A stretch of DNA of 64,000 bases from an uncultured Erythrobacter sp. (GTDB taxonomy: Bacteria > Pseudomonadota > Alphaproteobacteria > Sphingomonadales > Sphingomonadaceae), in assembly GCF_947499705.1 (NCBI RefSeq), contig NZ_CANMPJ010000001.1, positions 1 through 64,000 on the forward strand, written 5' to 3'. Shown here one piece after another: positions 1 to 46,381 of the stretch. A program made the translations under genes and the position numbers. The notes under the pieces are model-generated. The model was given only the letters and a program-made list of their open reading frames with translations, was not told the origin of the DNA and made no database searches. Each line of letters begins with the position of its first letter. Within the stretch, counting starts at the first letter, position 1.

Positions 1-1222
1 TGAGAGCACGGGCGGCGGGACGCTTGATCTTGGTGCGCTGTCGAGCGACGGCAATATCGATCTGGACACGAGCGGTCTGGTTACGACCAGCACGATTAAC
101 TCGCTGGGTGACCTGACCATTGGCGGGACGACCGATCCAGGCGCGGTAACCTTCACTGGCAATGTCAGTGCAGATGCGATCGACATCGATACGACCGGAG
201 TGGTGACGGCGCTCGATATTGAGTCGACCGATGGCGATCTCAACATTCTGGCGGGGGACTCGATCAACGCAGGCGGTGTGACTGCGACCGAAGGCGACGT
301 GATCCTGTCGGCGACGAACAACATCACGACCACTTCGATCAGCTCGAATGAGAACCTTGGATCGGGCGGTGCAATCGACATCGACAGCACCGGCGGCGGC
401 ACGCTTGATCTGGGTGCGGTGTCCGGCGACGGCGCGGCCAACTTGGACACCACCGGAACGCTGACGCTGGGTCTGGTCAATATCGGCGGGGCGCTGGTGA
501 TCGGCGCGGCCAATCAGCCGACCACGCTGAACTTGAACGACAACATCACCGCTGGCAGCTTCACGTTTACTTCGGCCAACCCGTTCGTGTCGCAGGACAT
601 CACCACGACCGATGGTGATCTGAACATCGATGCGGCGTCGATTACGACCGGCGCGCTGGGTGCGCAAAATGGCGGCGGAGTGATCCTGACCGCGACCGGC
701 AACATCACGACGACGTCGATCGCCTCGAACGAGCCTGGTGTTGTGAACGGGTTTATCGATGTTGAGAGCACGGGCGGCGGGACGCTTGATCTTGGAGCTC
801 TAAGTTCTGACGGTAATATCGATCTGGATACGAGCGGTCTGGTCACAACGACGACGATCAACTCGCTGGGTGATCTGACCATTGGTGGGACGACCGATCC
901 AGGCGCGGTAACCTTCACTGGCAATGTCAGTGCAGATGCGATTGACATTGATACGACCGGAGTGGTGACGGCGCTCGATATTGAGTCGACCGATGGCGAT
1001 CTCAACATTCTGGCGGGGGACTCGATCAGCGCAGGCGGTGTGACTGCGACCGAAGGCGATGTGATCCTGTCGGCGACCAACAACATCACCACGACCTCGA
1101 TCAACTCGAACGAGAACCTTGGATCGGGCGGTGCGATCGATGTGGACAGCACGGGCGGCGGCACGCTTGATCTGGGTGCGGTGTCCGGCGACGGCGCAGC
1201 CAACCTTGATACCACTGGCGCG
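1..1222 (+). repeat. 762-bp tandem duplication inside the exoprotein gene
   Basis: Bases 1 to about 460 recur at 763 to about 1222 with a constant offset of 762 bp (254 codons). The match is nearly perfect around 123-300 versus 885-1062 and looser at the edges. The repeat is in frame. The left end is cut by the window, so further copies may exist upstream. Confidence 0.85.
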
Positions 1223-4200
1223 CTGATAACAGCAGGCGGGAATGTGGGAGGAGCGTTGGTCGTCGGCGGCACAGCCGATCCGTCTTCGATTACTTTCACC
1301 GGAAACTTCACCGCCGCGAGCATGGATCTCGACACGACCGGTCCAGTGAATACCCAAGACTTGTCTGCCCCCACCGGGCTGATCGATATTCAGGCTGGCA
1401 CGACCATAACGACTGGCGATGTGACAGCTGATGCCGTGAATTTTGTGGGCAATGGTGCGATCCAGACCGGCAATGTGACGAGCAATCAGTCGCTCAGCCT
1501 TGCAGCAACGGGCGGAAGTCTAACGACCGGGAACGTGGTCGTGAACAATCTGGGAGCGTCAGTGACGCTGCGGGCCAGCGGCGCGACCAGCGATGTCACG
1601 ACCGGATCGGTCAATTCGAATGGCGGCGACATTTTCATCACTGCGGAACGCGATATCATGGCCGCTGCGGTTGCGACGGCGCTGGCGGGAACTCCGACCG
1701 CAGGGACGGTTGGTATGCATGCCGGTGGTTCAATCACCGCCGGACAGGTGGATGCGGGTGAGGATATCCGGATCGAGTCCGTCGGCAGCACCGTCACGAT
1801 GGCCGGAGCGACGGCGGGCGATGATGTTGTTATCAGTGCTGCAGGCGCGATTAATGTTACCGGGCCAGTCGTAGCCAGCGGAAGCGGGCCTGATCTGTTC
1901 GCGGTCTCCTTTGCCGGAGCGCCAGGTGTCTCGAACATGGTGTTCGGTGCCGAGTCGCTGCTCGGATCGAACATCGATATCGACACTTCTGCGGCACTGA
2001 ACGCAACCGACCTGACCGCAAGTGCGGGCGGGATTGACGTGGATGCGGACTCGATCGTCGCTGGCGCTGTTAGCGCGACGGGCGGCGACGCTTTGCTGAC
2101 GGCAACAGGCAACGTCACGACGGTTTCGATTACTGCGGTCACCTCGGGAGCAGGCGGAGCGATCGACGTCGACAGCACCGGCGGCGGGATACTCGATATC
2201 GGCGATCTGAGTGCGGATACGACCATCGCGCTCGACACCACCGGTACGCTGGCTGCGAACACGGTGACGTCTGTTGGGGCTTTGACGGTTGGCGCGACCG
2301 CTCAGCCAAGCTCGGTCAACTTCACCGGCAACGTGACCGCCGGTAGCATGGACATCGACTCAACGGGCGCGTTGCAGGCTCTCGATCTGACAGCGACCGC
2401 TGGCGATATTGATGTCGACACTGCCTCGATTGCTACAAACGCAGTCAGTGCAACCGGCGGTGATGTCTCGCTTACAACCAGTGGGGGCATCACGACGGCC
2501 TCGATCACAGCGGTCACATCCGGCGCAGGCGGCGCTATTGACGTAGACAGCACCGGTGGCGGTACGCTCGATCTGGGCGATCTCACTGCCGATACGACAA
2601 TCGATCTCGACTCGAGCGGGACGTTGGCTGCGAACACTATCGCTGCCACGGGCGCACTCACAATTGGCGGCACGGCGCTGCCTTCTTCGGTCAGTTTCAC
2701 CGGTAATGTCTCTGCAGGAAGCATGGATATCGACGCTACCGGTCCGCTGACAGCGCTTGATCTCGATGCGACAGCGGGTGCAATCGACGTCGATGCCGGT
2801 TCGATCCTCGCTACGAATGTTTCGGCAACGGCAGGCGTCGCGCTGGATGCGACTGGCGCCATTACAACCGGCGACATCGATGGAGGCGGGACGATCAACG
2901 TCGCCTCTACCGGTGCAAGCGTGAGTACCGGGGACGTGGTCGGGAACGCGCTCGGAGGCAGCATTACTCTGCGCGCCGCCGGTGCGACGAGCGATGTCAG
3001 CGCGGGCACGATTAACTCCAACAGCGGCGACATCTTTGTCTCGGCCGAACGCAATATCACCACTGGTACCGTTTCGACTGCGCTGGCTGGGGCTCCCACA
3101 GGAGGCACGATAGGCCTGCATGCGGGCGGATCGATTGCCGCCGGACAGATCGCGGCAGGCGAAGATCTGCTGGTTGAATCCGTCGGAAGCACCGTGACGT
3201 TGGCCGGCGTGACCGTAGGCGACGATGCGACGATCACAGCGGCAGGAGCGATCGATCTTCAGGGCCCAGTTGTGGCCGATGGCAGCGGACCTGATGTTTT
3301 CTCGGTTATGTTTGCGGGCGCACCAGGTGTTTCCAACTTGTTGTTCGCTGCCGAAGCGCTTCCGAAATCGAATATCGTCATCAATACGCCGGCGGCGGTT
3401 ACAGCAACTGATCTGACAGCGAGCTCGGGCGGAATCGATATCGATGCCGGATCGATCGCCGCGAACACGCTGGCCGCCACAGACGGCGATGTGGAGCTGA
3501 CGGGTACAGGCACCATCACCGCGAGTTCGATCACTGCGAGTATCGGCGTAATGGCGATGGGCGGCAACATCGACGTCGACAGCACTGGCGGCGGCATGTT
3601 GAACCTTGGCGACTTGGCCGCAGGTGCTGGCATTGCGCTGGATACGAGCAGCACTCTTACGGCGAACACCGTAACTTCCACCGGGGCGCTGACAGTCGGC
3701 CAAACCGCCATGCCCACGGCAACGACCTTCACCGGCAATGTCACTGCCGGCAGCATGGATATCGATGGCACGGCGACTGGTACGCTGAACGCCCTGGATC
3801 TCACTGCCAATGCTGGTGACATCGACATTGACGTCGGCTCAATCACCGCGAGCAACGTAAGCGCGACCGGCAACGCAGCGCTGGATGGCGCAGGCACGAT
3901 CAGCCTCGCTAACGCGACTGCAGACAGCGACACGAGCGGTGCAGGCGATCTCAGCATCGGGACCAACACGATCCCGGCGCAGCTCAATATCACCGGCACA
4001 GCCAGCGGTGTGAACACCTCGCTCCATGCCGACACTCTGAACGTTATCACCGCCACCGCAACGGGAGGCGATCTGGTCCTTTCTGGTGGCACCGTGACTG
4101 TGGGTGCCGCGCAGGCGACCAACAACGTTATGGCCGATGCTACCACGTCGATCACCGCCGACACATTGACTGCTGACAGCGATATGAGCGGCGCGGGTGA

Positions 4201-7200
4201 TCTGCAGGTTGGCCTGATGACCGCGCCAGGTCAGCTGACGGTCAACACGGCTGCAACCGGGGCCAATGTGACGCTGCAGGCTGGCCAGATCAATGCTGCT
4301 GCAGTCACAGCCACTGCGGGCAATGCAACTCTCAATGCCAGCGGCAATGTCACAACAAGCACTATCACTTCGACTGGCGGTGGCATCGATGTCGACAGCA
4401 CGGGCGGGGGCACACTCGATCTCGGCGATCTGACTTCCAGCGCGGGCATTGCTCTCGACACGAGCGGGACATTGACCGCAAACACTGCGACTGCTGTCGG
4501 CGCGCTGACGGTTGGCCAGACTGCCATGCCCACGGCAACGACCTTCACCGGCAATGTCACCGCTGGCAGCATGGATATCGATGGCGCCGCTGCGGGTACG
4601 CTCACAGCTTTGGATCTGACCGCGAATGCCGGTGACATCGATGTGGATGTGGGTTCGATCACCGCTTCCAATGTCTCTGCGACGGGCAATGCCGCGCTCG
4701 ATGGCGCGGGCACGATCGCGGTGGCCACCGCGACTGCGGACAGCGACATGAGCGGAGCAGGCGATCTCACCATCGGGACCAACACGATTCCAGCTCAACT
4801 GACGGTTGCAGGCGCAGCCAGCGGGGTGAATGCATCGCTGCACGCAGACGTTCTCAACGCCGCGACCGTGACTGCAACCGGAGGCGATGCGGTTCTTTCG
4901 GGCGGCACGATCTCCGTCGGCGCAGTGACAGCCACCAACGATGTGATCGCCGATGCGACCACTTCGATCACACTAGATACCGTAACCGCTGACAGCGATA
5001 TGAGCGGTATGGGCGATGTGGAGATCGGTCAGACCACGCGGCCTGGACAGCTCTCCATCACGACCTCGGTGACCGGTGTGAACGTCACTCTCGAGGCCGA
5101 CAACGTCAATGTGATCAACGGCCTTTCGACCAATGGCGACAATGTCATTCGCGGCGACTCGATCGCGCTTACCGATGTCACGGCCACAGGCGGTGATGCC
5201 ATCCTCGAGGCGACTGGTAGTGTCACCACCAACTCGATCACCGCGACTTCTGCCGGGATGTCTGGAGGCAATATCGACGTAGACAGCACTGGCGGCGGTG
5301 CGCTTGATCTCGGCGATCTGACCGCTGACGCTGGGATCACGCTGGATACCACAGGCTCGATGACTGCTGGCGCGGTGACTGCAACCGATCATCTTCAGAT
5401 CGGCGGCACAGCCTCACCAAGCTCTGTCAGTCTTTCCGGCAATGTCACTGCAGGCTCGGTGGAAATTCTCTCGACCGGCGGCATTGCTGCGCAGGACCTT
5501 ACGGCAACCGCTGGAGATGTTGATCTCGACGGTTCGACAATCACTGCGCTGGACGTTTCAGCGACGGGCAATGTCTCAGCCGATGGGGCGGGCGCGATCT
5601 CGCTGGCAAGTGCAATCGCCGACAGCGATATGATCGGCACTGGAGATCTTTCAGTCGGCACAAACACCGCCCCGAGCGATCTGACGATTGCAGGGGCAAG
5701 TTCGGGTGCGAACGCCAGTCTTGTCAGCGCAGGAGCGCTCACTGCAAGTACGGTTGAAGCGACCGCAGGCACTGCGACTCTGACCGCCGATACTGTCAAC
5801 GCTGACACAGTCACCGCGACGGGCGGTGATGCTGTGCTGAATACGAGTGGCGACGCCACGATCAACGCGATTTCGGCCTTCACCGCTGGCATGGCTGGCG
5901 GAGCGATCGATGTCGACAGCACCGGCGGCGGTGCACTCAGCCTCGGCGACGTGACTGCCGATACGGACGTCGCGATCGACACGACCGGCTCGGTTGCGGC
6001 TGGCCAAGTTGCTGCGGGCGGTGCGCTCACGGTTGGCAGCACTGCGGTCCCGAGCAGCATAACCTTTACCGGCAATGTCAGTGCCGCCAGCGTTGGCGTC
6101 GAGACCACCGGCGCTATCTCGGCGCAAGATGTCACCGCGACCGCTGGTTCCATCACGGCGAATGCCGCTGACATTACGGCGGGCGCAGTCGCGGCGACGG
6201 ACGCAATCACTCTCGATGCTGCCGGGCCGATCAACCTCGCGAGCGCTGTTGCCGACAGCGACAATAGCGGTGCGGGCGATCTTTCCATCGGTACCAACAC
6301 AGCGCCATCTGATCTCACGATACCGGGCGATGTTTCAGGCGCGAATGTAACGCTAGTCAGCGCAGGCGCTGCCACGACTGGCGCAGTATCGGCTGGCAAT
6401 GGGGATACGGCGATCACGAGCGCAGGGGATGCGACCATCGCCAGCGTAACGACGAGCGAGCTGGCGGTTCAGTCCGGCGGATTGCTGACGGTCGGCGCGA
6501 TCGACGCAAGCGGATCAGCTGTTCTCGAAAGCGCCGATGTCGACTTGCAAGCAGCCGTCGATGTCGATGGCGCTAGCCTGACGCTTCGCTCCGCACCGGG
6601 TGTCTCAGTGGGTCTCGGTGATGGCATGGGAGACTACCAGCTTTCCGATGCCGAGCTCGCCCTTATCGACACTGGTACCTTGGTGATCGATGCAGTTGAT
6701 CAGGCGATCGAAGTGAGCGGCGTCTCATTTACCGATCAAGCAGGTGCAAACGAAGTGGTGCTTGCGACTTCGGGCACAGGCAGCCTCATCCGGATAGTCG
6801 GAGACATCTCCGGCAACGGCAATGGCCGGATTTTCCGCTTTGGCGGTGATGCCGCGATGGGCACGATGCTGGCCGAGCGGATCACGATGGATATCGAAGC
6901 GGCCTCGATCGACTTTGGCGATGCAACCTTCGATTTGCGCGCAGAAGACATCGCGTTTGGCAATCAGGAGTTGATTGATGCAGTCGCCGGCCGCGACAGC
7001 GGCGATCTGGCGCTCAACATCGTGGGTGATGCCAACTCGCTGCTTTACAACCCGCTTCTGGCGGGTGGGATCGGAGGCGCTCGCATCGCCGATCCGGTAT
7101 TCCTGAGAGCAGGCAACATCACGGTGACCTATGGAAACTCGGCACTGTTCCAGAACACTGCACCGCCTCAGGAAGGCGGCACTCTGTTCACCGGGATTGA

Positions 7201-7597
7201 ACTTGGACAACCAGGTTCGAACGGAACGCTGGCGCTGAACACGGTTGACGATACCAACACCTTCGCCTTCTTCGGCCAGATTAACGAGCTGGTCGGGACC
7301 GCTGCGGCTCTGGCGGGCAGCAATGTGATCCTGCTCGGCAACGACGTTCGCTTGCCGGATACGCGGGTCAATGGTTGCGTGATCGGTAGCGGCGCGGATT
7401 GTGTGACCACGATCGTTGGGACCACAGTCATTTCGATCCCGCGCGAGGTGGTTGAGCTGCTGACGGCGGATGCCGGATTGCTTGTCCCGTTCGATCCGCT
7501 GGTCGGCACCAACAACGAAGGTCTGTTTTCCGATGCAGCGACTGTCCCTGATGAAGATTGCGAACGAGATGAAAATGGCGCCTGTGTCGGACCCTAA
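2..7597 (+). CDS. Giant repetitive two-partner-secretion (FHA-like) exoprotein, 5'-truncated by window edge
   Basis: The reading frame is open from base 2 and runs to a TAA at 7595-7597, so only the last ~2,530 residues are visible. The start, signal peptide and any TPS domain lie to the left. The protein is rich in Ala, Gly, Thr, Asp, Val and Ile and is built of imperfect repeats with recurring phrases such as DVDSTGGGTLDLGDL, TFTGNVTAGSMDID and ALDLTATAGDIDVD, as in right-handed beta-helix adhesins of the filamentous haemagglutinin family. The last ~350 residues are non-repetitive and hold the only cysteines I see (NGCVIGSGADC and CERDENGAC). A likely secretion partner is the FhaC/ShlB-type gene at 40121-41737. 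The CHAT lipoprotein gene follows at once. Secretion and adhesin function are inferred from architecture and context; a different beta-strand surface protein is possible. Long frames on the opposite strand are composition shadows. Confidence 0.85.
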   Translation, partial: ESTGGGTLDLGALSSDGNIDLDTSGLVTTSTINSLGDLTIGGTTDPGAVTFTGNVSADAIDIDTTGVVTALDIESTDGDLNILAGDSINAGGVTATEGDVILSATNNITTTSISSNENLGSGGAIDIDSTGGGTLDLGAVSGDGAANLDTTGTLTLGLVNIGGALVIGAANQPTTLNLNDNITAGSFTFTSANPFVSQDITTTDGDLNIDAASITTGALGAQNGGGVILTATGNITTTSIASNEPGVVNGFIDVESTGGGTLDLGALSSDGNIDLDTSGLVTTTTINSLGDLTIGGTTDPGAVTFTGNVSADAIDIDTTGVVTALDIESTDGDLNILAGDSISAGGVTATEGDVILSATNNITTTSINSNENLGSGGAIDVDSTGGGTLDLGAVSGDGAANLDTTGALITAGGNVGGALVVGGTADPSSITFTGNFTAASMDLDTTGPVNTQDLSAPTGLIDIQAGTTITTGDVTADAVNFVGNGAIQTGNVTSNQSLSLAATGGSLTTGNVVVNNLGASVTLRASGATSDVTTGSVNSNGGDIFITAERDIMAAAVATALAGTPTAGTVGMHAGGSITAGQVDAGEDIRIESVGSTVTMAGATAGDDVVISAAGAINVTGPVVASGSGPDLFAVSFAGAPGVSNMVFGAESLLGSNIDIDTSAALNATDLTASAGGIDVDADSIVAGAVSATGGDALLTATGNVTTVSITAVTSGAGGAIDVDSTGGGILDIGDLSADTTIALDTTGTLAANTVTSVGALTVGATAQPSSVNFTGNVTAGSMDIDSTGALQALDLTATAGDIDVDTASIATNAVSATGGDVSLTTSGGITTASITAVTSGAGGAIDVDSTGGGTLDLGDLTADTTIDLDSSGTLAANTIAATGALTIGGTALPSSVSFTGNVSAGSMDIDATGPLTALDLDATAGAIDVDAGSILATNVSATAGVALDATGAITTGDIDGGGTINVASTGASVSTGDVVGNALGGSITLRAAGATSDVSAGTINSNSGDIFVSAERNITTGTVSTALAGAPTGGTIGLHAGGSIAAGQIAAGEDLLVESVGSTVTLAGVTVGDDATITAAGAIDLQGPVVADGSGPDVFSVMFAGAPGVSNLLFAAEALPKSNIVINTPAAVTATDLTASSGGIDIDAGSIAANTLAATDGDVELTGTGTITASSITASIGVMAMGGNIDVDSTGGGMLNLGDLAAGAGIALDTSSTLTANTVTSTGALTVGQTAMPTATTFTGNVTAGSMDIDGTATGTLNALDLTANAGDIDIDVGSITASNVSATGNAALDGAGTISLANATADSDTSGAGDLSIGTNTIPAQLNITGTASGVNTSLHADTLNVITATATGGDLVLSGGTVTVGAAQATNNVMADATTSITADTLTADSDMSGAGDLQVGLMTAPGQLTVNTAATGANVTLQAGQINAAAVTATAGNATLNASGNVTTSTITSTGGGIDVDSTGGGTLDLGDLTSSAGIALDTSGTLTANTATAVGALTVGQTAMPTATTFTGNVTAGSMDIDGAAAGTLTALDLTANAGDIDVDVGSITASNVSATGNAALDGAGTIAVATATADSDMSGAGDLTIGTNTIPAQLTVAGAASGVNASLHADVLNAATVTATGGDAVLSGGTISVGAVTATNDVIADATTSITLDTVTADSDMSGMGDVEIGQTTRPGQLSITTSVTGVNVTLEADNVNVINGLSTNGDNVIRGDSIALTDVTATGGDAILEATGSVTTNSITATSAGMSGGNIDVDSTGGGALDLGDLTADAGITLDTTGSMTAGAVTATDHLQIGGTASPSSVSLSGNVTAGSVEILSTGGIAAQDLTATAGDVDLDGSTITALDVSATGNVSADGAGAISLASAIADSDMIGTGDLSVGTNTAPSDLTIAGASSGANASLVSAGALTASTVEATAGTATLTADTVNADTVTATGGDAVLNTSGDATINAISAFTAGMAGGAIDVDSTGGGALSLGDVTADTDVAIDTTGSVAAGQVAAGGALTVGSTAVPSSITFTGNVSAASVGVETTGAISAQDVTATAGSITANAADITAGAVAATDAITLDAAGPINLASAVADSDNSGAGDLSIGTNTAPSDLTIPGDVSGANVTLVSAGAATTGAVSAGNGDTAITSAGDATIASVTTSELAVQSGGLLTVGAIDASGSAVLESADVDLQAAVDVDGASLTLRSAPGVSVGLGDGMGDYQLSDAELALIDTGTLVIDAVDQAIEVSGVSFTDQAGANEVVLATSGTGSLIRIVGDISGNGNGRIFRFGGDAAMGTMLAERITMDIEAASIDFGDATFDLRAEDIAFGNQELIDAVAGRDSGDLALNIVGDANSLLYNPLLAGGIGGARIADPVFLRAGNITVTYGNSALFQNTAPPQEGGTLFTGIELGQPGSNGTLALNTVDDTNTFAFFGQINELVGTAAALAGSNVILLGNDVRLPDTRVNGCVIGSGADCVTTIVGTTVISIPREVVELLTADAGLLVPFDPLVGTNNEGLFSDAATVPDEDCERDENGACVGP
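3700..5016 (+). repeat. 816-bp-period internal repeat in the exoprotein gene
   Basis: Segments near 3700-4200 and 4516-5016 match at an offset of 816 bp (272 codons). For example, ATGCCCACGGCAACGACC occurs at 3710 and 4526, and GACAGCGATATGAGCGG at 4175 and 4991. This is a longer and more diverged unit than the 762-bp repeat. Confidence 0.75.
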
Positions 7598-7601: not shown

Positions 7602-7610
7602 ATGAAGACG

Positions 7611-11210: not shown

Positions 11211-11219
11211 GCCGCGCGC

Positions 11220-11729: not shown

Positions 11730-11739
11730 GGTGCTTCGT

Positions 11740-13190: not shown

Positions 13191-13196
13191 CAAGGC

Positions 13197-33250: not shown

Positions 33251-33252
33251 AT

Positions 33253-35639: not shown

Positions 35640-36643
35640 CCTTTGCTCAGGAGGCGGCGAAAAAGCCGAAACGCTTCAGCCTGTTCGCGCTGGTGCGGGG
35701 CCTCGCCGCGCGCGCGCTGGACAAGCCGCCGGTTGGGCGCAGCAAGCTGCCCGATCAGGACATCGTTCGGTTGCGGCAGATCGCGCACACGCATTTTCCA
35801 GGGCCGACGCTTGGCGAGATCGAAATCAAGAATGGGCGCGCAGAAGCAGGTGGTTATTGGCTCGGTCTGACCGGCCCAATGTCGCCGCTTCCGCTGCACT
35901 TCACCGAATTCGCAGCCTATGAACGGAAATATGCGAAGGAACGCCCGTTCGGCGATTTTCTCGACATGCTGGCGAGTCGGTTCCTGCAATTGTTCTACCG
36001 GTCTTGGGCAGTCTCCCAGCCAGCAGTGCAGGCCGACCGTCCCGAACATGATCGTTTCGCGAGCTACGTCGATCGCCTGACAGGCGCGACCGAGGGTGCT
36101 GGTGAGCACAACTCTTTCCCGGCTGGGGCGAGGCTCCATTATGCTGCGCTATTTGCGTCGCGGCGTAGTGCGGGAGCGATCGAAGGCGGACTGCGCCATT
36201 TGCTTGGATTGCCCGTGACTTTGCGCGAATTCGTGCCCGTCAGGCAGGATATCGATCCATCCGATCAGACCCGGCTTGGTATGCAGCATTGCGGATTAGG
36301 TGAGGCGGTGCTTGGCGCCCGCGTCTACATGGTAACCGACAATTTCGAGGTGCAAATTACTGCCAGCGACATTGGCGAGTTCCGCCAATTGCAGCCCGAT
36401 GGCGCGATGTTCCGCGTGGCTGCCGAAGCTCTTGATGCGCTTTCGCCTTCGCATCTTGAATGGGGCATCACCTTGGCCCTGCCGCAATCCAAGGTGGAAC
36501 CTGCGCGTCTCAACGGGCAGGCGCGGCTTGGCTGGTCTTCGTGGGTGGGGACCGACACGGCAAAAGCTGCCAACGACGATTTACGAAAAGATGTGCATTT
36601 GCGCCGCTCAGCGATGAACTATCGCGCGGGCGGAGGACTTTAA
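35603..36643 (+). CDS. tssG: T6SS baseplate subunit TssG
   Basis: 346 residues with FSLFALVRGLAARA, YWLGLTGPMSPLPLHFTEF, ERPFGDFLDMLASRFLQLFYRSWA and LRHLLGLPVTLREFVP, all typical of TssG. It starts inside tssF with a GGGGGA about 9 nt upstream of the ATG. It binds TssF and TssK in the baseplate. clpV follows after 11 nt. Confidence 0.95.
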   Translation: MAAEDRHPRAYLTFAQEAAKKPKRFSLFALVRGLAARALDKPPVGRSKLPDQDIVRLRQIAHTHFPGPTLGEIEIKNGRAEAGGYWLGLTGPMSPLPLHFTEFAAYERKYAKERPFGDFLDMLASRFLQLFYRSWAVSQPAVQADRPEHDRFASYVDRLTGATEGAGEHNSFPAGARLHYAALFASRRSAGAIEGGLRHLLGLPVTLREFVPVRQDIDPSDQTRLGMQHCGLGEAVLGARVYMVTDNFEVQITASDIGEFRQLQPDGAMFRVAAEALDALSPSHLEWGITLALPQSKVEPARLNGQARLGWSSWVGTDTAKAANDDLRKDVHLRRSAMNYRAGGGL

Positions 36644-36647
36644 GGGG
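36642..36647 (+). promoter_or_regulatory. Ribosome binding site for clpV
   Basis: AAGGGG overlaps the tssG stop codon and lies 7 nt before the ATG at 36655, selecting that start over the upstream open frame inside tssG. Confidence 0.6.
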
Positions 36648-36654
36648 TAATGCG

Positions 36655-39399
36655 ATGACCGAGATTAGCCGTTCCGCGCTGTTTGGGCGCCTCAATCCGA
36701 CCGCTTTGAAGGCTATCGAAAGCGCGACGGGTTTCTGCAAGATGCGCGGTAATCCGTATGTCGAGTTGGTACACTGGCTGCATATTCTGCTGCAGGATTC
36801 GCAGAACGATCTCGCTGCGATCCGCACCGCTTTCAATATCGACGACACGCAGTTGGCGCGCGATACGGTTCAGGCGCTCGATGCGCTGCCGCGCGGGGCA
36901 AGCGCGATCTCCGACTTCTCGCCGCAGATCGAAGAGGCGATTGAGAAGGGCTGGCTTTACGCTTCGCTGCAATTCGGCGCTGCCAAGGTACGCACCGGCC
37001 ATTTGCTGTTCGGAATGCTCAAGACGCAAACGCTCAGTAACGCCTTGCAGAATATCAGCCTCGAGTTTCGCAAGGTCGAGGCCAACCGTTTGGCGGCGGA
37101 TTTCGAACGGCTTACGAACGGCTCCACCGAGACTACGCAAGTGTCTGGCGGAACGAGCGAAGCCGGTGCAACGGCGGGTGAGCCGGGCGCGGGCACTCCC
37201 GGCGAGGGCGGTGCGCTGGCGCAGTTCTCTGTCGACCTCACCCAGCAGGCGCGTGACGGAAAGATCGAAACGATCATCGGCCGCGATGCAGAAGTCCGGC
37301 AAATCGTCGATATCCTGCTGCGTCGCCGTCAGAACAACCCGATCCTGGTCGGCGAAGCTGGGGTCGGAAAGACTGCTGTGGTCGAAGGATTCGCCAAACG
37401 GATCGCCGAAGGCGATGTGCCGCCATCTTTGCAGGGGGTCACTCTGCGCGCACTCGATATTGGGATGATGCAGGCGGGTGCGAGCGTGAAGGGCGAGTTC
37501 GAAAAACGCCTGCGCTCGGTGATCGACGAAGTCGAAGGCTCGGCCACCCCGATCATCCTGTTTATCGACGAGATTCACACGTTGGTTGGCGCTGGCGGTT
37601 CCGCCGGGACAGGCGATGCGGCCAACCTGCTCAAGCCGGCTTTGGCACGCGGCAACCTGCGCACGCTCGGCGCGACGACCTATGCCGAGTATCGCCAATA
37701 TTTCGAGAAAGATCCGGCGCTGACGCGCCGGTTCCAGACTGTCGACATTGGTGAGCCGGACCGCGACAAAGCGATCCTGATGATCCGCTCGATCGCGCCG
37801 ATGATGGAAGACCATCACCAGATTGTCGTGCTGGATGAAGCGGTTGATGCCTCTGTGACACTATCGCAGCGTTACGTTCCAGCGCGTCAATTGCCCGACA
37901 AGGCAGTTAGCTTGCTTGATACGGCGGCAGCGCGCGTTGCGGTGTCGCAGCATGCGACCCCGGCGCGGGTCGAGGACCGCGCGCGCAAACTCGAACTGCT
38001 TGAAGTGGAGCGCGAGGTCGTCGAGCGGGAGCGCGGCGCCCAATATCGCTCGGATGATCGGCATGAGAAGATTCTGGCTGAAATCGAGGAGGCGAAAGCC
38101 GCTTTGGAAGTGGCTCAGACCAAGTGGGATGCAGAAAAGGAGGCGCTCGCGAAAGTGGTTGAAGCCCGTCAGGCGCTGACCAAAGCGCGAGGCGTGGAGA
38201 GCACATCTGACCAAGCTGAGGATGGTCACAGCGAACCAGAAGAGGGCACAGCCGACACTGAGGCCGCGCAAGAGCCGGCGAACGAACCGACAAGCGAACC
38301 TGCTTTGCCGGAAGCGGAGTGCGAAGCCAATCTCGCTGCTGCGCTCGCCGATTTGGAAAAGGCGCAAGGCGACGATCCGATGGTGTTTGGTGTGGTGGAT
38401 GCCGATGCGGTATCCGCCGTTGTTGCCGACTGGACCGGCATTCCCGTGGGCCGGATGGTCAAGGACGAGATCAGATCGACCCTCGACCTTGCCGATCGCA
38501 TGAAGCAGCGTGTTATCGGTCAGGATCACGCGATGGATGCGATTGCCAAACGGATTCAGACCAGCCGCGCAAAGCTCGACAATCCCAACAAACCCGTCGG
38601 TGTGTTCATGCTGTGCGGTCCGTCGGGCGTCGGTAAGACCGAGACCGCCGTGGTCCTTTCCGAACTGCTGTTCGCAGGCGAGGAATCGATGATTACGATC
38701 AATATGAGTGAATTTCAGGAGGCGCATACCGTCTCGACACTCAAGGGCGCGCCCGCAGGGTACGTCGGGTACGGACAGGGCGGCGTGCTGACGGAAGCCG
38801 TGCGGCGCAGGCCGTATTCGGTCGTGCTGCTCGATGAAGTCGAGAAAGCGCACCCGGACGTCCACGAGATGTTCTTTCAGGTGTTCGACAAAGGCTTCAT
38901 GAACGATGCCGAAGGTCGCTACATCGATTTCAAGAACACGCTGATCCTGCTCACCAGCAATGTCGGCACCGATCTGATCATGGATATGGCGGCTGACCCG
39001 GAACTGGCTCCTGAGCCAGAAGCGATGGCGACCGCACTACGTCCCGAATTGCTCAAGGTGTTCCCACCAGCGTTGATCGGACGCACTGTGCAGCAGGCGT
39101 TCTTCCCGCTGGACAAGGACATGCTGGGCAAGATCGTCGACCTGCAACTGGGCCGTATCAAGAAGCGGATTGCAGGCAATCACAAGATCGAAATGGTCTA
39201 TGGCCAGGACGTGATCGACCTGATCGTGTCACGCTGCAACGACGCCGATTCCGGTGGCCGGATGATCGACAACATTCTCACCAACACAATGCTGCCGGAA
39301 ATGTCGGTCCAACTGCTCGAAAAGCAGATGGATGGGCTGGAAGTCACTAAAATCGAAGTGAAGGCCGGAGATGCCGGTTTCGAGTATGAGTTCGGCTAG
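36655..39399 (+). CDS. clpV: T6SS AAA+ ATPase ClpV (TssH)
   Basis: 914 residues. The Clp N-domain (MTEISRSALFGRLNPTALKAIESA, NPYVELVHWLHILLQD) is followed by AAA-1 with Walker A GEAGVGKTA near residue 233 and LFIDEIHTLVGAGG, the coiled-coil middle domain, and AAA-2 with Walker A GPSGVGKTE near residue 655 and VVLLDEVEKAHPDV. ClpV disassembles contracted TssBC sheaths. An extra acidic, Glu/Ala/Pro-rich stretch of ~45 residues (about 513-556) lies just before the second AAA module. It is the last gene of the operon; its 3' end overlaps a minus-strand gene by 53 nt. Confidence 0.96.
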   Translation: MTEISRSALFGRLNPTALKAIESATGFCKMRGNPYVELVHWLHILLQDSQNDLAAIRTAFNIDDTQLARDTVQALDALPRGASAISDFSPQIEEAIEKGWLYASLQFGAAKVRTGHLLFGMLKTQTLSNALQNISLEFRKVEANRLAADFERLTNGSTETTQVSGGTSEAGATAGEPGAGTPGEGGALAQFSVDLTQQARDGKIETIIGRDAEVRQIVDILLRRRQNNPILVGEAGVGKTAVVEGFAKRIAEGDVPPSLQGVTLRALDIGMMQAGASVKGEFEKRLRSVIDEVEGSATPIILFIDEIHTLVGAGGSAGTGDAANLLKPALARGNLRTLGATTYAEYRQYFEKDPALTRRFQTVDIGEPDRDKAILMIRSIAPMMEDHHQIVVLDEAVDASVTLSQRYVPARQLPDKAVSLLDTAAARVAVSQHATPARVEDRARKLELLEVEREVVERERGAQYRSDDRHEKILAEIEEAKAALEVAQTKWDAEKEALAKVVEARQALTKARGVESTSDQAEDGHSEPEEGTADTEAAQEPANEPTSEPALPEAECEANLAAALADLEKAQGDDPMVFGVVDADAVSAVVADWTGIPVGRMVKDEIRSTLDLADRMKQRVIGQDHAMDAIAKRIQTSRAKLDNPNKPVGVFMLCGPSGVGKTETAVVLSELLFAGEESMITINMSEFQEAHTVSTLKGAPAGYVGYGQGGVLTEAVRRRPYSVVLLDEVEKAHPDVHEMFFQVFDKGFMNDAEGRYIDFKNTLILLTSNVGTDLIMDMAADPELAPEPEAMATALRPELLKVFPPALIGRTVQQAFFPLDKDMLGKIVDLQLGRIKKRIAGNHKIEMVYGQDVIDLIVSRCNDADSGGRMIDNILTNTMLPEMSVQLLEKQMDGLEVTKIEVKAGDAGFEYEFG

Positions 39400-40120: not shown

Positions 40121-41737
40121 TTAGAAACTAACCCCAGCCCGCACATTGATCTGCGGTCCGTCCGGATCACTGCGTTCGCCGCTTCCACCCAGTGGAAACG
40201 CGCTTTCGACTTCGAAATCGAACACGCCCCAGCGTCCGCGCACACCCGGACCAGCTGAGAACAGCGAGCCTTCGCCAAAGTTCTGATCGATGTCGGACAC
40301 ATAGCCGCCGTCGATGAAGCTGTAGAGCTGGAGGAAATTGAGCGGCAGATCCTCGGTGTTCACCCGGTAGCGCAATTCGGCAAGGCCAGAGATTCCCTCG
40401 TCGCCGAGCACTTCGGCAAAATCGTAGCCGCGCACGCGGTACGCCCCGCCAAGCGAGAGCTCTTCGCTCGCCAGCAGCGGTCGATCCGCGAGTTGCCCGG
40501 CTGCGGAAAGGTAGACGTCAAGGCGTTTGACGACTGGGATGCGCGTGTCCGCGTTGAAGCGGAATTTGGTGAAGACACCGTCCCCGTCGCGGCGCGATGC
40601 GCTTGGATCGCCCAGGCGCGTTGCGCCGAGAATACCGAGGCCGCGCTCGACTGAAAGGCCGGTGCGAATGAATCCGCCGCCTGCCAATGCAAATCGAGTG
40701 CGCAAACCGGCTGATGCGGTGACCAGCGTGTCGTCGCGAAGTAAAGTGCCGAGCTCGTCCTGCTTGATCGAGATGTAGGCGACCTCGCCTTCGGCCCACA
40801 GGCTGCTTTTCTTCGTGCGTAGTAGCGGCGCGGTGATGCTGGCATTCGCGCGCACAGTGTCGCCGCTGATATCCGATCCGTCGAGAGAACCACCCGGTGC
40901 GGTCCCTCCCAAGGCGCCGCTGACGCGGGCAGTCACTCCGCCATCGGTCACTTGTGTTTCGTAGGAACCCGATACGAACAGCAGCTCATCCAGATCCACT
41001 GGATTGATGCGAACCGATGTTCGAAGCTCGTCGGAAGAAGCGAGAAGCCCGAAAACCCTCGTGGAGGCGTTTACGCGGATCGGGCCAAAGGTCTCGGTCC
41101 CGTAATTGTCCGCCGCAATCCGTCCGCGATTGTCGCGTTCGCCAAGCTTGACCACCAGAATCGAACGTCCGTCGTCACGATTCAACTTCGCACCGCGGAG
41201 GATCACGCCGGGAATGTCGGAGACCCTCAGCAAGGTGCTCTCAAGATCATTGCGGCGCGCAGGCCGCCCGATCAGATCATTCAGCATGGCCTGAGCCTGA
41301 GCGTTGGCCACGCCATCGATCTCAATTCCGTCGATCCGACCTTCGTCGATCGCGACCTCAATTATACCCATCGCGGCGGCATCTTCATCGATTGAGGTGC
41401 GCGCGTAAGGATACCCGGCTTCACGGGCCAGTTCGGCCAGTTCGTCAGTCAGCCGGTCGAGCACTTCATCGGTGAGTGGTTCGCCAAAAAACTGTTCAAC
41501 CACCGCTTGATATCGCGCGTCTTCGATTGCTTCATTGCCGCGGATAACAACCGCACCAATCTGATCGGTATTGTCGCTTTCACCGCTGTCGAAGCGCCCA
41601 TCGGGTTCCACTGTCAGAACATTGGCGAAAGCAATCCGCGGTCCCGCTGATCTCTCCTGCGCATGGGCAGCGTGCATGGGAATGCACACGGCAGCGCCCG
41701 CCATCAGCGTGCAGATCAGTGGAAGTCTGGTCCCCAT
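40121..41737 (-). CDS. Two-partner-secretion outer-membrane transporter (FhaC/ShlB/HecB family)
   Basis: 538 residues. A Sec signal (about 1-27, ending MHAAHAQ) precedes POTRA-like repeats (AVVIRGNEAIEDARYQAVVEQFFGEPL, and DGIEIDGVANAQAQAMLNDLIGRPA) and a 16-strand-type barrel with the signature YRVRGYDF near residue 430. The terminal residue is Phe (RAGVSF), as usual for BAM-inserted barrels. Such proteins export a single large TPS exoprotein. The only fitting partner in view is the giant repeat protein at 2-7597, which lies on the other side of the T6SS. It is divergent from the FecR gene with 150 bp between. Confidence 0.92.
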   Translation of the reverse strand: MGTRLPLICTLMAGAAVCIPMHAAHAQERSAGPRIAFANVLTVEPDGRFDSGESDNTDQIGAVVIRGNEAIEDARYQAVVEQFFGEPLTDEVLDRLTDELAELAREAGYPYARTSIDEDAAAMGIIEVAIDEGRIDGIEIDGVANAQAQAMLNDLIGRPARRNDLESTLLRVSDIPGVILRGAKLNRDDGRSILVVKLGERDNRGRIAADNYGTETFGPIRVNASTRVFGLLASSDELRTSVRINPVDLDELLFVSGSYETQVTDGGVTARVSGALGGTAPGGSLDGSDISGDTVRANASITAPLLRTKKSSLWAEGEVAYISIKQDELGTLLRDDTLVTASAGLRTRFALAGGGFIRTGLSVERGLGILGATRLGDPSASRRDGDGVFTKFRFNADTRIPVVKRLDVYLSAAGQLADRPLLASEELSLGGAYRVRGYDFAEVLGDEGISGLAELRYRVNTEDLPLNFLQLYSFIDGGYVSDIDQNFGEGSLFSAGPGVRGRWGVFDFEVESAFPLGGSGERSDPDGPQINVRAGVSF

Positions 41738-41887: not shown

Positions 41888-43909
41888 ATGATTGCACATG
41901 CCAAGAAATCGCTAGCACTGGCGGCTTTGCTCGCCAGCACCAGCGCCCTTGCGGCCGCGCCCGATTGGCGCGTTTCGGAAGTAAGCGGCAGTGTGACCGT
42001 GAATCGCGGCGGCAAGGTGCTGTCCGTGCGGCAGGATTCGACACTGCGCCCCGGCGATGTGATCCGGACAGGCAGCAAGGGCCGTGCGGTTCTGGTGCGC
42101 GGCAAGGAATTCGTCGTGGTGTCTCCGGGTGCTCAGCTCAAGGTTGCCGTTCCTGAGGAATCCGGACCGGTCGTTCAGTTCTTCCAGTATCTCGGCAATG
42201 CGCTGTTCAAGATCGAAAAGAAATCGACCCCGCATTTCGGTGTCAAAACCCCGTATCTCGCCGCCGTCGTCAAAGGCACGACCTTTAACGTCTCAGTCGG
42301 CGCGGATCGCTCCAGCGTTCAGGTGACGGAAGGGGCAGTCGAAGTCGCAACCGGCGATGATCTCGAAGCGGCTCTGATTACTCCGGGTCTGATAGGCTTC
42401 GTCGATGCCGATGACGCAGGCGAGCTGATGGTGATTGCTGGCAGCCGCTCGGGCGAGGACCTTTCCGGTGCTGTGGTGCGCGGGACACCTGAATTTTTGA
42501 ACACGCCGCCTCAGGCGCGAAATGGTTTGGGTGATACGGACGGAGCTCCTGGAGCGTCGGGAATGACGCCGGCTGCAGGGCAGTCCAACCGTGTGCTAGG
42601 CCAGAACCCCGCACTCGCAAGTGCGGGCCAGCAGCTGGCTCTCAACCTGATGGATGATGACGTGTCTGGCGGAGCTTCGGCTGGTGAGATCGAACAGAGC
42701 GCGACCGTTCTTGACCAGGATCAGCCTGACGCACTTTTTGACGATGCTGGCGAAAGCAGCACTGATAGCGACGAAACGCAGGCAGTCGCGGCCGTTCCTG
42801 AGCCAGTGACAGAACTGGATGACAGCAGTCAGGAAGATGAGGTCGCGCCAGAACCAGAACCAGAACCGGAACCAGAACCTGTCGTACCAGAAGTCGCCGA
42901 TGATCAGGGCGCAGGAAGCGGTCCAACAGGCAATGACGAACAAGATGGAAGCGGCGTCGAAGAGGATATCGACGACGGCAGCTCTGGCGAAGTGGCGACG
43001 CTCGATGTGTCCCCTGACCAAACCGACGATCTTGGCGACGGCAATAATGGTCATGGCAATGACGCCGATGGCGGTGACGACAGCAATCCGGGCCAAGGCA
43101 ATGGCAACGGCAATGGCAACGGTAATGGCGGCGGCACCACCGGGAATGATGAGCTCGATGGAAGTGGCGTAGAGGTTGATATTAGCGACGGAGGATCGGC
43201 CCAAGTCGTACAGGTCGACGTAAATCAAAGTGCATTTGGTCCGGGAGGATTTGGCGGCAGTGACAGCAACGGCAACAGTGGTGATGACGCTGTAGTCGAC
43301 GCCGACGTCGATATCGATGTGGGTCTTGGCACCGATGACGGTCAGGATGATGGTAATAACGGCCATGGCAACGATCCGGACGGGACGGATGACAGCAATC
43401 CGGGGAATGGCACCGGCAATGGCCATGGAAATGGCAGTTCCGCGGGCGACGAACGCGACGGAAGCGGCGTTGAAGAAGACATCGATTCTGGCAGCTCAGA
43501 TGACGCGATAGACGTCGGCATCGACGACGGGAACGCGGACGGCGATGATGCCGGCGGGCAAGGTGGCAATGGCGGAATCTGCCTTGGCAATTTCTGTTTC
43601 GATCTGCGCGGCGATGAAGACGAAGATGGCCGCGACGAGAATGACGATGGTGATGGCCGCGCGTGCGGGCGCATCCTTTGTGTTGAAGGGCCCGGCATCG
43701 ACGAGGACGATGGCGACGACGGCGAAGATGGTACCGAAGACGAAGATGATATCGACATCGGTGATGACTTAGACCTCGACCTCGACGATGATGATGATGG
43801 CAACAACGGCCATGGCAACGATGACGACGACGACGATGACAGCAACCCGGGCAAGGGTAATGGCAAAGGTCGCGGCAACGGCAACGGTCACGGGGGTGAC
43901 GACGATTGA
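41888..43909 (+). CDS. Exported FecR-domain protein with acidic Asp/Gly/Asn repeat tail
   Basis: 673 residues. A signal peptide (ending STSALAAA) precedes a FecR domain at about residues 28-165 (VSEVSGSVTVNRGGKVLSV, LRPGDVIRTGSKGRAVLVR, VKTPYLAAVVKGTTFNVSV). The rest is low-complexity and acidic. A PEPEPEPEP stretch is followed by three repeats of the type NNGHGNDxDGxDDSNPGxGNG, alternating with three copies of (D)GSGVEEDI, and two Cys-containing segments near 560-600. The DxDGxD-like pattern suggests calcium binding. It lacks the membrane segment of the anti-sigma FecR and is probably periplasmic or surface exposed. It is divergent from the TPS transporter and upstream of the CHASE2-EAL gene. 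No clear RBS is seen. Confidence 0.88.
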   Translation: MIAHAKKSLALAALLASTSALAAAPDWRVSEVSGSVTVNRGGKVLSVRQDSTLRPGDVIRTGSKGRAVLVRGKEFVVVSPGAQLKVAVPEESGPVVQFFQYLGNALFKIEKKSTPHFGVKTPYLAAVVKGTTFNVSVGADRSSVQVTEGAVEVATGDDLEAALITPGLIGFVDADDAGELMVIAGSRSGEDLSGAVVRGTPEFLNTPPQARNGLGDTDGAPGASGMTPAAGQSNRVLGQNPALASAGQQLALNLMDDDVSGGASAGEIEQSATVLDQDQPDALFDDAGESSTDSDETQAVAAVPEPVTELDDSSQEDEVAPEPEPEPEPEPVVPEVADDQGAGSGPTGNDEQDGSGVEEDIDDGSSGEVATLDVSPDQTDDLGDGNNGHGNDADGGDDSNPGQGNGNGNGNGNGGGTTGNDELDGSGVEVDISDGGSAQVVQVDVNQSAFGPGGFGGSDSNGNSGDDAVVDADVDIDVGLGTDDGQDDGNNGHGNDPDGTDDSNPGNGTGNGHGNGSSAGDERDGSGVEEDIDSGSSDDAIDVGIDDGNADGDDAGGQGGNGGICLGNFCFDLRGDEDEDGRDENDDGDGRACGRILCVEGPGIDEDDGDDGEDGTEDEDDIDIGDDLDLDLDDDDDGNNGHGNDDDDDDDSNPGKGNGKGRGNGNGHGGDDD

Positions 43910-44047: not shown

Positions 44048-46381
44048 GTGTGGCTGACGCGAATTTCGCGTGAGAATCGTGATGCACAGATTGGCGCCGC
44101 AGCATTTGCGGCTGCCTGCATCGTCGCGCTTGCCATGGTCATTTCGGGCTTCGCGCACTTCCTTGAGCAGAGCCTCCATGATGGCCGCGATCAAATGCGG
44201 CTCTCCCCTGCGTCCGGTGACATTGCGATTGTCGAGATCGACGGGCGTTCGCTAGAGGCGCTCGATCAATGGCCCTGGCCGCGCGGTCACTACGCTTCGG
44301 CAATCACTGAACTCGATCGACTGGGCGCGGCACAGATTGCCTTCGATGTCGATTTTTCCGCGAATTCGTCGATTGAGGAAGATGGGAAGCTCGCGAAGGC
44401 GTTTGCCGCGATCAGTCAGCCTGCGATCCTGCCGACTTTCCGGCAGACCAATGAAGCCGGCGGCAGTCAAACCATCACCGAAACGCTGCCGATCCCGAAG
44501 TTCCGTGAGCACACCTTTGTCGCATCGGTGAATGTCGCTCCTTCCGCCAATGGCAGGATCACGCTCTATCCTCACGGCACGACCACGAATGGCACCGCCC
44601 GTCCGTCGCTGGCGAATATGCTGGCCAAGACCAGCGGCGAGGTCGATCAGTCTTTCAGAGTCGATCAGGCGATCGACATTTACTCCATCCCGCGCATCTC
44701 GTTCGTCGATCTTGTCGAAGGCCGCGTTCCGCGTTCCGCGATCGCTGGTAAGCGGGTTGTGATCGGGGCCACCGCCATTGAGCTGTTCGATCGCTATCCC
44801 ACTGCGCTTTTCGGCGTTCAGCCCGGTGTAGTGATCCAGGTTCAAGCGGCCGAGACGCTGCTCCAAGGCCGGGCGAGAGGCGGAACAGGTCAATTGATGC
44901 CGCTGATCGCCGTTGCGCTGGTATTGGGAGCATTCCTGTGGCGCCGCGGGCGTTCGGGCAAGGGAGCGGCCAAAGGCACTGCCGTGGCAGCCGTCCTGGC
45001 TGTTTCGCTTGTCGCTTTGGCGTTGGCATTTGATCAAGCGGCGCTGCCATATGTTCCATTGACCGGCGCTTTGGCATTTCTGATCACCTATTTCGCTGCG
45101 CGCAGAGCAATCAAGGCGGGTGTGAGCTTGCAGGCGGAGCGTTTGACCGACACCGCATCACAGCTTCCTAATCGTACGGCCATGCAGATTGGCCTGAAGC
45201 GCCGAGAAAACACCATGATCGCTGTGGCGCGAGTGGCAGATTTTGGCGAAGTACTGACTGCGCTCGGCATTTCGCATGTCGCCGAACTCGACCGTGCTAT
45301 CGCAAGGCGGCTTCGTTTGATGTCGGGCGTGGCGGAAGTCTACCGGCTGGAGAATGGCCTATTTGGCTGGTTCATGCCTGACGAACACGCCTCCGATCTG
45401 GATGACGCGTTTGCGGCTGCCCGATCATTGTTCACCGCACCATTCGAAATCGCAGGTGAACGGCTGCGCCTCGGGGTTCATTTTGGCAATGCGACCGACT
45501 CGATCGACAATGCCGAGGCAGCGTCGGAAATGGCCCGCAAGCGCGGGCTGAGCTGGTCTTCGAACGCGCGCGGGCTTCACGAAGAAACGCAGTTCCGCCA
45601 ACGCCTGCTAGGTGAGCTTGACGATGCGCTGAGCAACGGCGCAATTTCGGTCGTGTTTCAGCCCAAACTGCAACTGTCCGACCAAACCATCTCCGCCGGC
45701 GAATGTTTGGTGCGCTGGAACAGCCCTCAATTGGGTCAGATTTCTCCAGCGGACTTTATTCCGATCCTCGAAGAGAAGGGCAGGATTTTCGATCTGACTC
45801 TCTTCGTTCTGCGAGAAGCATTGCGGTGCCGAGATGACGCCAGAGATTCGGGGCAGGCCTTGAACCTTGCTGTCAATGTGTCGGCGCAGTTGCTTTCGGA
45901 TGATGAGTTCATCCAGACCGCGTCAGCGATCCTGAAAGACAACGGTGCGCCCGAAAATGGCGGAATAACGCTTGAGATCACTGAGAGCGCGCCGCTGGTC
46001 GATTCCGTTTCCGCGCGGTCGGCGCTCGAAGCCCTGTCTGCCGCTGGCGCGCGAATTTCGATCGACGACTACGGAACCGGACAGGCCTCGCTCAACTACC
46101 TTCAGGATTTCCCCGCGCAGGAAATCAAGCTGGATCAGAGCTTTGTTCGCAATCTGGTCGCCGACCGCAAGGATCGCATCATGGTCCAGTCGACCATCGA
46201 GCTCGCCCACGCGCTTGGGTTCGATATCGTCGCCGAGGGCGTGGAAGATGCAGAAGTGCTGCAATCGCTCGCGCAGCTTGGGTGCGACTACGCGCAGGGC
46301 TGGGAGATTGGCAAACCGGTCGACTGGACCGAATTCTCGGCAATGCTCGGCGACAGAAAAGCCATGCAAGCGGCTGCTTGA
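44048..46381 (+). CDS. CHASE2 sensor with degenerate GGDEF and EAL (c-di-GMP phosphodiesterase) domains
   Basis: 777 residues from GTG 44048 (AGGAG 7 nt upstream). One membrane segment (about 13-37) is followed by the periplasmic CHASE2 domain (DIAIVEIDGRSLEALDQWPWPR, FDVDFSA, KRVVIGATAIELFDRY) and a cluster of membrane segments (about 280-345). A GGDEF-like domain follows (begins LPNRTAM) whose active-site loop reads LENGLFG, so it cannot be a cyclase. The EAL domain keeps the key residues: E552 in ECLVRW, LEITES, D673-D674 in DDYGTG, K694 in KLDQSF and E730 in EGVED. It should therefore hydrolyse cyclic-di-GMP in response to a periplasmic signal. CHASE2, FecR and exported repeat proteins are often neighbours. 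Confidence 0.92.
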   Translation: MWLTRISRENRDAQIGAAAFAAACIVALAMVISGFAHFLEQSLHDGRDQMRLSPASGDIAIVEIDGRSLEALDQWPWPRGHYASAITELDRLGAAQIAFDVDFSANSSIEEDGKLAKAFAAISQPAILPTFRQTNEAGGSQTITETLPIPKFREHTFVASVNVAPSANGRITLYPHGTTTNGTARPSLANMLAKTSGEVDQSFRVDQAIDIYSIPRISFVDLVEGRVPRSAIAGKRVVIGATAIELFDRYPTALFGVQPGVVIQVQAAETLLQGRARGGTGQLMPLIAVALVLGAFLWRRGRSGKGAAKGTAVAAVLAVSLVALALAFDQAALPYVPLTGALAFLITYFAARRAIKAGVSLQAERLTDTASQLPNRTAMQIGLKRRENTMIAVARVADFGEVLTALGISHVAELDRAIARRLRLMSGVAEVYRLENGLFGWFMPDEHASDLDDAFAAARSLFTAPFEIAGERLRLGVHFGNATDSIDNAEAASEMARKRGLSWSSNARGLHEETQFRQRLLGELDDALSNGAISVVFQPKLQLSDQTISAGECLVRWNSPQLGQISPADFIPILEEKGRIFDLTLFVLREALRCRDDARDSGQALNLAVNVSAQLLSDDEFIQTASAILKDNGAPENGGITLEITESAPLVDSVSARSALEALSAAGARISIDDYGTGQASLNYLQDFPAQEIKLDQSFVRNLVADRKDRIMVQSTIELAHALGFDIVAEGVEDAEVLQSLAQLGCDYAQGWEIGKPVDWTEFSAMLGDRKAMQAAA

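Follow-up and report, generated by a model that had tools for sequence, protein, structure and literature searches.

A complete two-partner secretion gene set with a CHAT protein gene lies in front of a type VI secretion cluster in an uncultured Erythrobacter

Results

We analyzed a stretch of 64,000 nucleotides (the window) from an uncultured Erythrobacter sp. (genome G000 of our set), which runs from base 1 of one contig (C1) and carries a type VI secretion system (T6SS) cluster from PAAR (10779) to ClpV (39399). Twelve of the 13 core Tss genes (the tssA-tssM set) were recognized by Pfam matches, on which the gene calls of the window rest. TssJ was seen in none of the cluster's open reading frames (ORFs) scanned with Pfam, no exhaustive TssJ profile search having been run. 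On the left of the T6SS lie the end of a two-partner secretion (TPS) exoprotein gene and a CHAT gene; on its right lie the genes of the ShlB2 transporter, a FecR-domain protein and a CHASE2-EAL protein. The initial annotation had placed all of them correctly, as Pfam confirmed for CHAT, the T6SS, ShlB2, FecR and CHASE2-EAL, and a domain outside the window confirmed for the exoprotein. It had further taken ShlB2 for the only fitting FhaC/ShlB transporter and the T6SS as splitting, or built into, one TPS locus; neither view holds, as shown below.

The left edge of the window is a contig end within the exoprotein repeats. Its first 219 bases (1..219, + strand) are an exact string match to the final 219 bases of another contig of the genome (C2), and the terminal C2 frame and the window frame share 97% identity over 326 residues, the last ones of the former and the first ones of the latter. 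Searching the genome, we found matches to the window frame at only two places, itself and the C2 end. The exoprotein gene is repetitive, a second C2/C1 alignment being offset by 762 bases. Since assemblies usually break at such places, we read the C2/C1 junction as an assembly break; the ends were joined by sequence matching alone, not by reads across the junction. The frame at 2..7597 (+ strand) holds the C-terminal 2531 codons of the TpsA-like protein and has no Pfam or NCBIfam domain of its own. We call it an exoprotein because its upstream part on C2 (C2:949561-951779, outside the window) bears the TPS secretion domain PF05860 (E 1.5e-15 and 3.1e-16 in two profile searches), the sole such domain found in the genome. 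Among PDB sequences, this domain matched EtpA (E 2.6e-11) and entry 2odl (E 4e-6), which is labelled 'Adhesin' and which we take to be HMW1.

A second transporter gene, ShlB1 (C2:947813-949564; PF03865, E 3.3e-9), lies outside the window near the right end of C2 and overlaps the start of the exoprotein frame. ShlB1 and ShlB2 are the two ShlB matches in the genome; a profile search gave a POTRA match in ShlB2 and none in ShlB1. At the gene level, two defining features of TPS are present, a TpsA with an N-terminal TPS domain and an adjacent TpsB with a ShlB barrel, and by sequence ShlB1 is the likely exporter of the exoprotein. The genome of Erythrobacter sp. JK5 (G830), a single contig of 3,340,457 bases, carries HPPD, glyoxalase, ShlB1, exoprotein, CHAT, PAAR, T6SS, ShlB2, FecR and CHASE2-EAL in this order and in one piece. 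With ShlB1 and the TPS-domain start at the C2 end, and with an unbroken gene order in JK5, we conclude that the TPS gene set ShlB1-exoprotein-CHAT is complete, precedes the T6SS and is not divided by it. A different transporter gene just left of the window had been named beforehand as evidence against a split locus, and ShlB1 is such a gene, at the C2 end and in JK5. The apparently missing transporter stems from the contig break in the gene repeats, an assembly artefact that is corrected here. In JK5, the exoprotein (L123, 3237-12517) appears as two overlapping frames of 2736 and 404 codons, a frameshift or an assembly error.

The CHAT gene (7602..10748, + strand; PF12770, E 1.7e-34) is the one CHAT match in the whole genome. 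It encodes a predicted lipoprotein with a helical TPR-like part and a caspase-like CHAT domain. Position 7602 is its likely start, 7470 being merely the first ATG of the ORF. The protein begins with an export-signal-like stretch (lipobox or signal-peptide-like), and between 7 and 40 kb (7000-40200) it is the sole ORF with a lipobox by pattern. The His/Cys dyad, H881 and C931 in P0002 numbering, is invariant in 46 CHAT sequences. Modeling predicts a TPR-CHAT/separase-like fold, and we regard the protein as a putative envelope protease. Searching PDB sequences with the CHAT profile returned one entry (E 0.007), a short chain that we judged a chance match.

Four nucleotides separate the exoprotein stop from the CHAT ATG, and 30 nucleotides separate the CHAT stop from the PAAR start. 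All genes from ShlB1 through PpkA run in one direction. Because of these short gaps on one strand, a single transcript is likely for these genes. Between 7000 and 23200, promoter-like sites (one, on the minus strand, versus 4.3 expected by shuffling) and terminator-like sites (12 versus 14.5) were uninformative.

Using phmmer with the window proteins, we mapped the loci of relatives, naming genes that resemble those of the window. TssC occurs in 22 of 397 genomes of the family Sphingomonadaceae, at 25 loci. CHAT lies within 30 kb of TssC in 11 of the 22 (G000, G038, G047, G063, G081, G084, G103, G134, G286, G338 and G395), and all 11 also have ShlB1 and the exoprotein there. Exoprotein and CHAT share a contig with TssM-TssL-TssK in G339, while in G190 and G360 a TssA N-terminus lies just beyond CHAT at the contig end (the short G360 contig shows neither ShlB nor exoprotein). 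Altogether, CHAT is linked to the T6SS in 14 of 22 genomes and at 14 of 25 loci. In the 22 T6SS-bearing genomes, 11 of 29 CHAT matches fall within 30 kb of TssC versus 0.57 expected by random placement, a comparison that overstates the case, as related loci are not independent.

The readable linked loci keep the order ShlB1, exoprotein, CHAT and then T6SS genes, with differing junction points. The junction lies before PAAR and tssK in the window, JK5, G047 and G338, before tssA in G038, G063, G134 and G286, before a tandem-TssC cluster in G103 and G081, and between clpV and tssK in G395. On a Sphingomonas parapaucimobilis megaplasmid, ShlB, exoprotein and CHAT stand between tssH and tssK, where the ShlB, annotated as hypothetical, scores 474 bits to ShlB1. 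The last 300 exoprotein residues align across 13 linked exoproteins. Exoproteins adjoining CHAT have a common C-terminal motif around N-[DEP]-x-L near the end. Its strict pattern occurs in 20 of 25 exoproteins; on visual inspection, those of G081, G103 and the plasmid come close to it. This motif is possibly a CHAT site, a candidate recognized post hoc and offered as a lead only.

We also surveyed 385 genomes of the class, few of them Sphingomonadaceae. Besides G000, G041 and G103, 77 of them carry CHAT, and 75 were tested for TssC, with G514 and G697 (weak matches) omitted. TssC is present in 11 of these 75 genomes of other families. The genes are linked within 30 kb in G580 and G659; in G747, the CHAT-TssC distance is 39 kb, yet CHAT lies amid T6SS genes. 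In G580 (L095-L096), ShlB-exoprotein-CHAT sits inside the T6SS, between PpkA-PppA-TagF-TssM and OmpA-TssA-TssB-TssC. Within the family, the search for CHAT covered the 22 T6SS-bearing genomes and 10 T6SS-free ones of the same genus, and CHAT was also read in 20 selected loci from T6SS-free genomes; ShlB/CHASE2 pairs were chosen among the matches listed. Eight CHAT matches were not retrieved (two each in G323, G041 and G286, G094 2.777M and G057 3.517M).

The first CHAT tree (43 sequences) placed the 15 linked proteins of the family (14 plus JK5) in one group, with 17 unlinked in-family proteins as its sister. Three further unlinked proteins (the G338 second copy, G180 C1:2.958M and G190 C255) branch farther out. 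When 13 proteins from T6SS-free ShlB loci were added (54 tips, one a cut fragment), the linked group kept its 15 tips, without intruder and with support 100. The plasmid copy brought it to 16 tips, again with support 100, and nothing changed on adding the CHAT of G778, which falls outside the clade. Later trees omit G190 C255 and G180 C1:2.958M for their long branches, and the last ones omit the cut L148 copy; G344 C1:1.585M and G383 C37 (no phmmer match) are absent throughout, as are most CHATs of the class survey. The linked/unlinked label changes 3 times on the tree versus a mean of 15.3 and a minimum of 9 in 2000 shuffles, three other-family linked tips being counted as linked. These other-family CHATs group separately, together with a G580 copy that is unlinked. 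By sequence, the T6SS-linked CHATs of the family thus form a single clade that none of the placed T6SS-free CHATs enters, a picture that unsampled genomes could change.

In the TssC tree, G103, G081 and G339 fall in the distant tandem-TssC group together with the unlinked G094 and G029, while their CHATs stay in the linked clade, next to those of G084 and G395. One CHAT clade is therefore tied to two distant T6SS backbones.

We then turn to the right flank, where ShlB2 (40121..41737, - strand; POTRA and ShlB/FhaC barrel), which is not the exoprotein's adjacent partner, is divergent from the FecR-domain gene (41888..43909, + strand). The latter encodes a signal-peptide-like start and acidic GND/SNPG repeats and is followed by CHASE2-EAL (44048..46381, + strand), with a cyclic di-GMP phosphodiesterase-type domain. 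ShlB2 is 26% identical to ShlB1, and in the ShlB tree it groups with those of JK5, G041 and G121, apart from ShlB1. The ShlB2-FecR-CHASE2-EAL module is found in G121, G041, G142, G195, G186 and G044, all without a TssC match. It also occurs in G091 (without a FecR match) and in G778, where no T6SS gene lies in the 40 kb read (the genome itself was not searched). Genome-wide searches of the T6SS-free G121 found neither a CHAT nor a TPS-domain match; hence, a ShlB2-type transporter needs no CHAT or TPS partner. In JK5 the module adjoins the T6SS, and in G081 about 9 kb separate the two. G047 and G338, the two closest T6SS relatives from other genera, do not have it next to the T6SS: there is none within about 31 kb right of ClpV in G047, and in G338 none across the 4.7 kb left before the contig end. 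The two flanks are thus neither always linked nor always unlinked in relatives. These comparisons of gene sequences indicate a separate, separable module that is a neighbor in the same variable chromosomal site. The FecR protein could be a cargo of ShlB2, as it looks exported, without having a TPS domain. The frequent association of TPS, CHAT, FecR and CHASE2 genes, on which the initial annotation drew, stands in part: T6SS-free sphingomonads such as G089 have CHAT-CHASE2-(others)-ShlB-exoprotein runs, but the association does not take the form of a locus split here.

The site itself runs in G000 from C2:947630 to about 71440 of C1, between HPPD-glyoxalase and a conserved right-hand gene of the genus. 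Of the 108 other same-genus genomes that have an HPPD match, 28 were examined over up to 20 kb next to HPPD (farther in JK5 and G778) for matches to the window reference proteins. The interval from glyoxalase to the right-hand gene runs from about 0.44 kb (G795 and G364) through about 5 kb (G121), 11 kb (G823) and 18 kb (G852) up to about 74 kb (JK5). It is about 75 kb in the window genome if the contig ends abut, the relative of the right-hand gene lying at about 71.4 kb of C1. Among the HPPD loci read, the ShlB2 module is present in G778 and the full block in JK5 only. A clean exchange of the T6SS against an intact exoprotein-CHAT-ShlB2 block was seen in none of the 28. The variable site thus contains the entire block, both TPS-type modules included, and there is no sign of the T6SS entering between halves of an older locus.

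Discussion

T6SS killing depends on firm cell contact, and the means by which attackers achieve it have been established in few cases. Giant adhesins can be cut by an envelope protease, as in LapA/LapG and FHA/SphB1. In Vibrio fischeri, the lipoprotein TasL, encoded in a T6SS island, is reported to mediate the cell-cell contact for T6SS killing (PMC9040878). The locus studied here resembles TasL, judging from its genes, in that a large, predicted surface protein is encoded with a T6SS. It differs from TasL, which is one large lipoprotein with fibronectin-like repeats, in having a TPS exoprotein, its own outer-membrane transporter and CHAT, and in belonging to Alphaproteobacteria.

We tentatively propose, as something close to an even call, that the TPS set and the T6SS work as one contact weapon, a grip-and-fire module. 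Export of the giant repeat protein through ShlB1 would yield a surface filament for tethering neighboring cells; the CHAT protein, a predicted protease, would trim, anchor or release this filament, and the tethered cell would be the target of T6SS firing. We propose the roles of tether, processing and firing because of the known TPS adhesins, the CHAT fold and the TasL precedent. We infer co-transcription from the short gaps on one strand, and further infer adhesion, exoprotein proteolysis and timing with T6SS firing. A combined contact system was already suggested by the initial annotation, and that idea gains support from how TPS-CHAT genes recur beside T6SSs and from the clade that the linked ones form. 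A more elaborate version, in which a T6SS-dedicated TPS filament holds the prey, the lipid-anchored separase-fold CHAT senses contact via its helical repeats and cuts the filament after firing, and CHAT may, in T6SSs lacking TssJ, double as an outer-membrane anchor of the firing complex, seems to us doubtful.

Like adhesins of the FHA/HMW1/EtpA type, the set has a TPS secretion domain, an upstream ShlB-type transporter and a giant repeat body; unlike them, it has a CHAT gene after the exoprotein gene, in a run that continues into a T6SS. The CHAT protein shares with TPR-CHAT (Csx29) of type III-E CRISPR and with separase the predicted helical-repeat and caspase-like CHAT fold with its His/Cys dyad; it differs from both by its export signal or lipobox, with 11-13% identity in structural alignments. 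What sets it apart from LapA/LapG and FHA/SphB1 is the CHAT fold, the cleavage here being a proposed one. The CHAT-ShlB-exoprotein sets of T6SS-free sphingomonads have related proteins and the common C-terminal exoprotein motif, and 5 of 13 have the same ShlB-exoprotein-CHAT order; however, CHAT is upstream of the transporter in 8 of 13 plus G089 and G094, and their CHATs fall outside the linked clade. Open-licence literature gave nothing joining 'CHAT domain' with 'two-partner secretion', nor with type VI secretion added. T6SS together with 'CHAT domain-containing' gave one Bacteroides fragilis paper.

Several observations weigh against a joint contact weapon. The C-terminal motif, a candidate CHAT site, was found after looking; it is missing from the G580 exoprotein despite its CHAT neighbor, and from that of G184. 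The link is absent in 8 of the 22 T6SS-bearing genomes of the family: G029, G043, G123, G262, G317 and G335 have no CHAT match, G057 has CHAT elsewhere, and G094 has it at 57 kb with its own ShlB. The unlinked G317, G094 and G029 bear T6SSs of the same backbones as linked genomes. In the class survey, 8 of 11 genomes are unlinked or unresolved (seven unlinked, G625 unresolved). The ShlB-exoprotein-CHAT order occurs in five of the 13 CHAT-bearing T6SS-free loci (L147, L148, L158, L160 and L163). Finally, G184 (L152, 3277-11534), which lacks TssC, keeps ShlB1 and exoprotein side by side, and the 20 kb read there contain no CHAT; these two genes can therefore persist without a T6SS. Its ShlB1 branches within the ShlB1 group of the linked loci (support 98 for the group, but a weak 49-80 for its place in it), which counts against strict dedication of the TPS genes to the T6SS.

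The G184 pair also fits co-inheritance alone, in which the TPS-CHAT genes and the T6SS, two competition or surface systems, share islands and hotspots without joint function. The block filling a site whose length ranges from the shortest intervals of G795 and G364 to that of JK5 agrees with this, as does the shared ancestry of linked loci, through which the chance calculation overstates independence. We consider it rather unlikely, since the linked CHATs group in a single clade into which no placed T6SS-free CHAT falls, this clade changed its T6SS backbone yet stayed linked, and the set sits inside the T6SS clusters of S. parapaucimobilis, G395 and G580. CHAT might instead act on the T6SS itself, as a regulator or as a membrane-complex lipoprotein replacing TssJ, with the exoprotein as its sensor or cargo. 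The unseen TssJ, the single lipobox between 7 and 40 kb, and the place of CHAT ahead of tssK-tssL-tssM in window-type loci would suit such a role. It becomes improbable given that no lipobox was seen by eye in the linked type B/C CHATs read (G038, G134, G190, G081, G103 and G339) or in the plasmid copy, that T6SSs without CHAT exist, and that related CHATs adjoin exoproteins without a T6SS.

The insertion of a T6SS into one exoprotein-CHAT-transporter-FecR-CHASE2 locus was suggested by the T6SS lying between exoprotein-CHAT and ShlB2-FecR-CHASE2-EAL in the window and JK5. We rejected it as scarcely credible, for ShlB1 adjoins the exoprotein, and genomes without a T6SS carry the ShlB2 module by itself, their transporters grouping with ShlB2 in the ShlB tree. 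A TPS exoprotein beside a T6SS could also be a toxin-delivery protein of the contact-dependent inhibition (CDI) type in a general competition island. Such a CdiA-like toxin, rejected as well, is very improbable: the 2531-residue part matches no Pfam or NCBIfam domain, toxin domains included, the aligned last 300 residues are unlike variable toxin tips, and the exoprotein-CHAT gap of 4 nucleotides leaves no room there for an immunity gene.

If the TPS set and the T6SS do work together, the TPS filament and the envelope CHAT, associated with T6SSs even across a change of backbone, would offer a genetic way into how Alphaproteobacteria hold their prey, and bacterial CHAT proteins would gain an extracytoplasmic role.

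Remaining genes of the window

After PAAR (10779..11210), the + strand carries a DUF4123 protein gene (11220..11729), presumably of the T6SS effector-adaptor type, and beyond an ORF described below, TssK (13164..14537), TssL (DotU with OmpA domain, 14534..16015), TssM (IcmF, 16040..19537), TagF (19507..20034), a PppA-type PP2C phosphatase (20031..20762) and a PpkA-type protein kinase (20759..22915). The - strand follows with a T6SS FHA protein (22937..24700), a DUF6931 protein (24697..25335) and VgrG (TssI, 25332..27320). The remaining genes are again on the + strand: an OmpA-domain protein (27789..28658), TssA (28683..29702), TssB (29806..30342), TssC (30411..31904), Hcp (TssD, 31952..32434), TagJ/ImpE (32459..33250), TssE (33163..33783), TssF (33783..35639), TssG (35603..36643) and ClpV (TssH, 36460..39399). 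All these calls are Pfam matches.

Sugar-use genes (xylose-isomerase-like, FGGY kinase, epimerase, MFS and LacI) follow CHASE2-EAL at 46400-52512, likewise in the T6SS-free G121; they have no match in the stretch read beside CHASE2-EAL in JK5.

An ORF without Pfam match (11653..13200, + strand; true start probably near 11740) lies between the DUF4123 gene and tssK, which it adjoins. It has mostly weak homologues in several sphingomonad T6SS loci and, by its sequence and position, is a candidate effector or unrecognized accessory protein.

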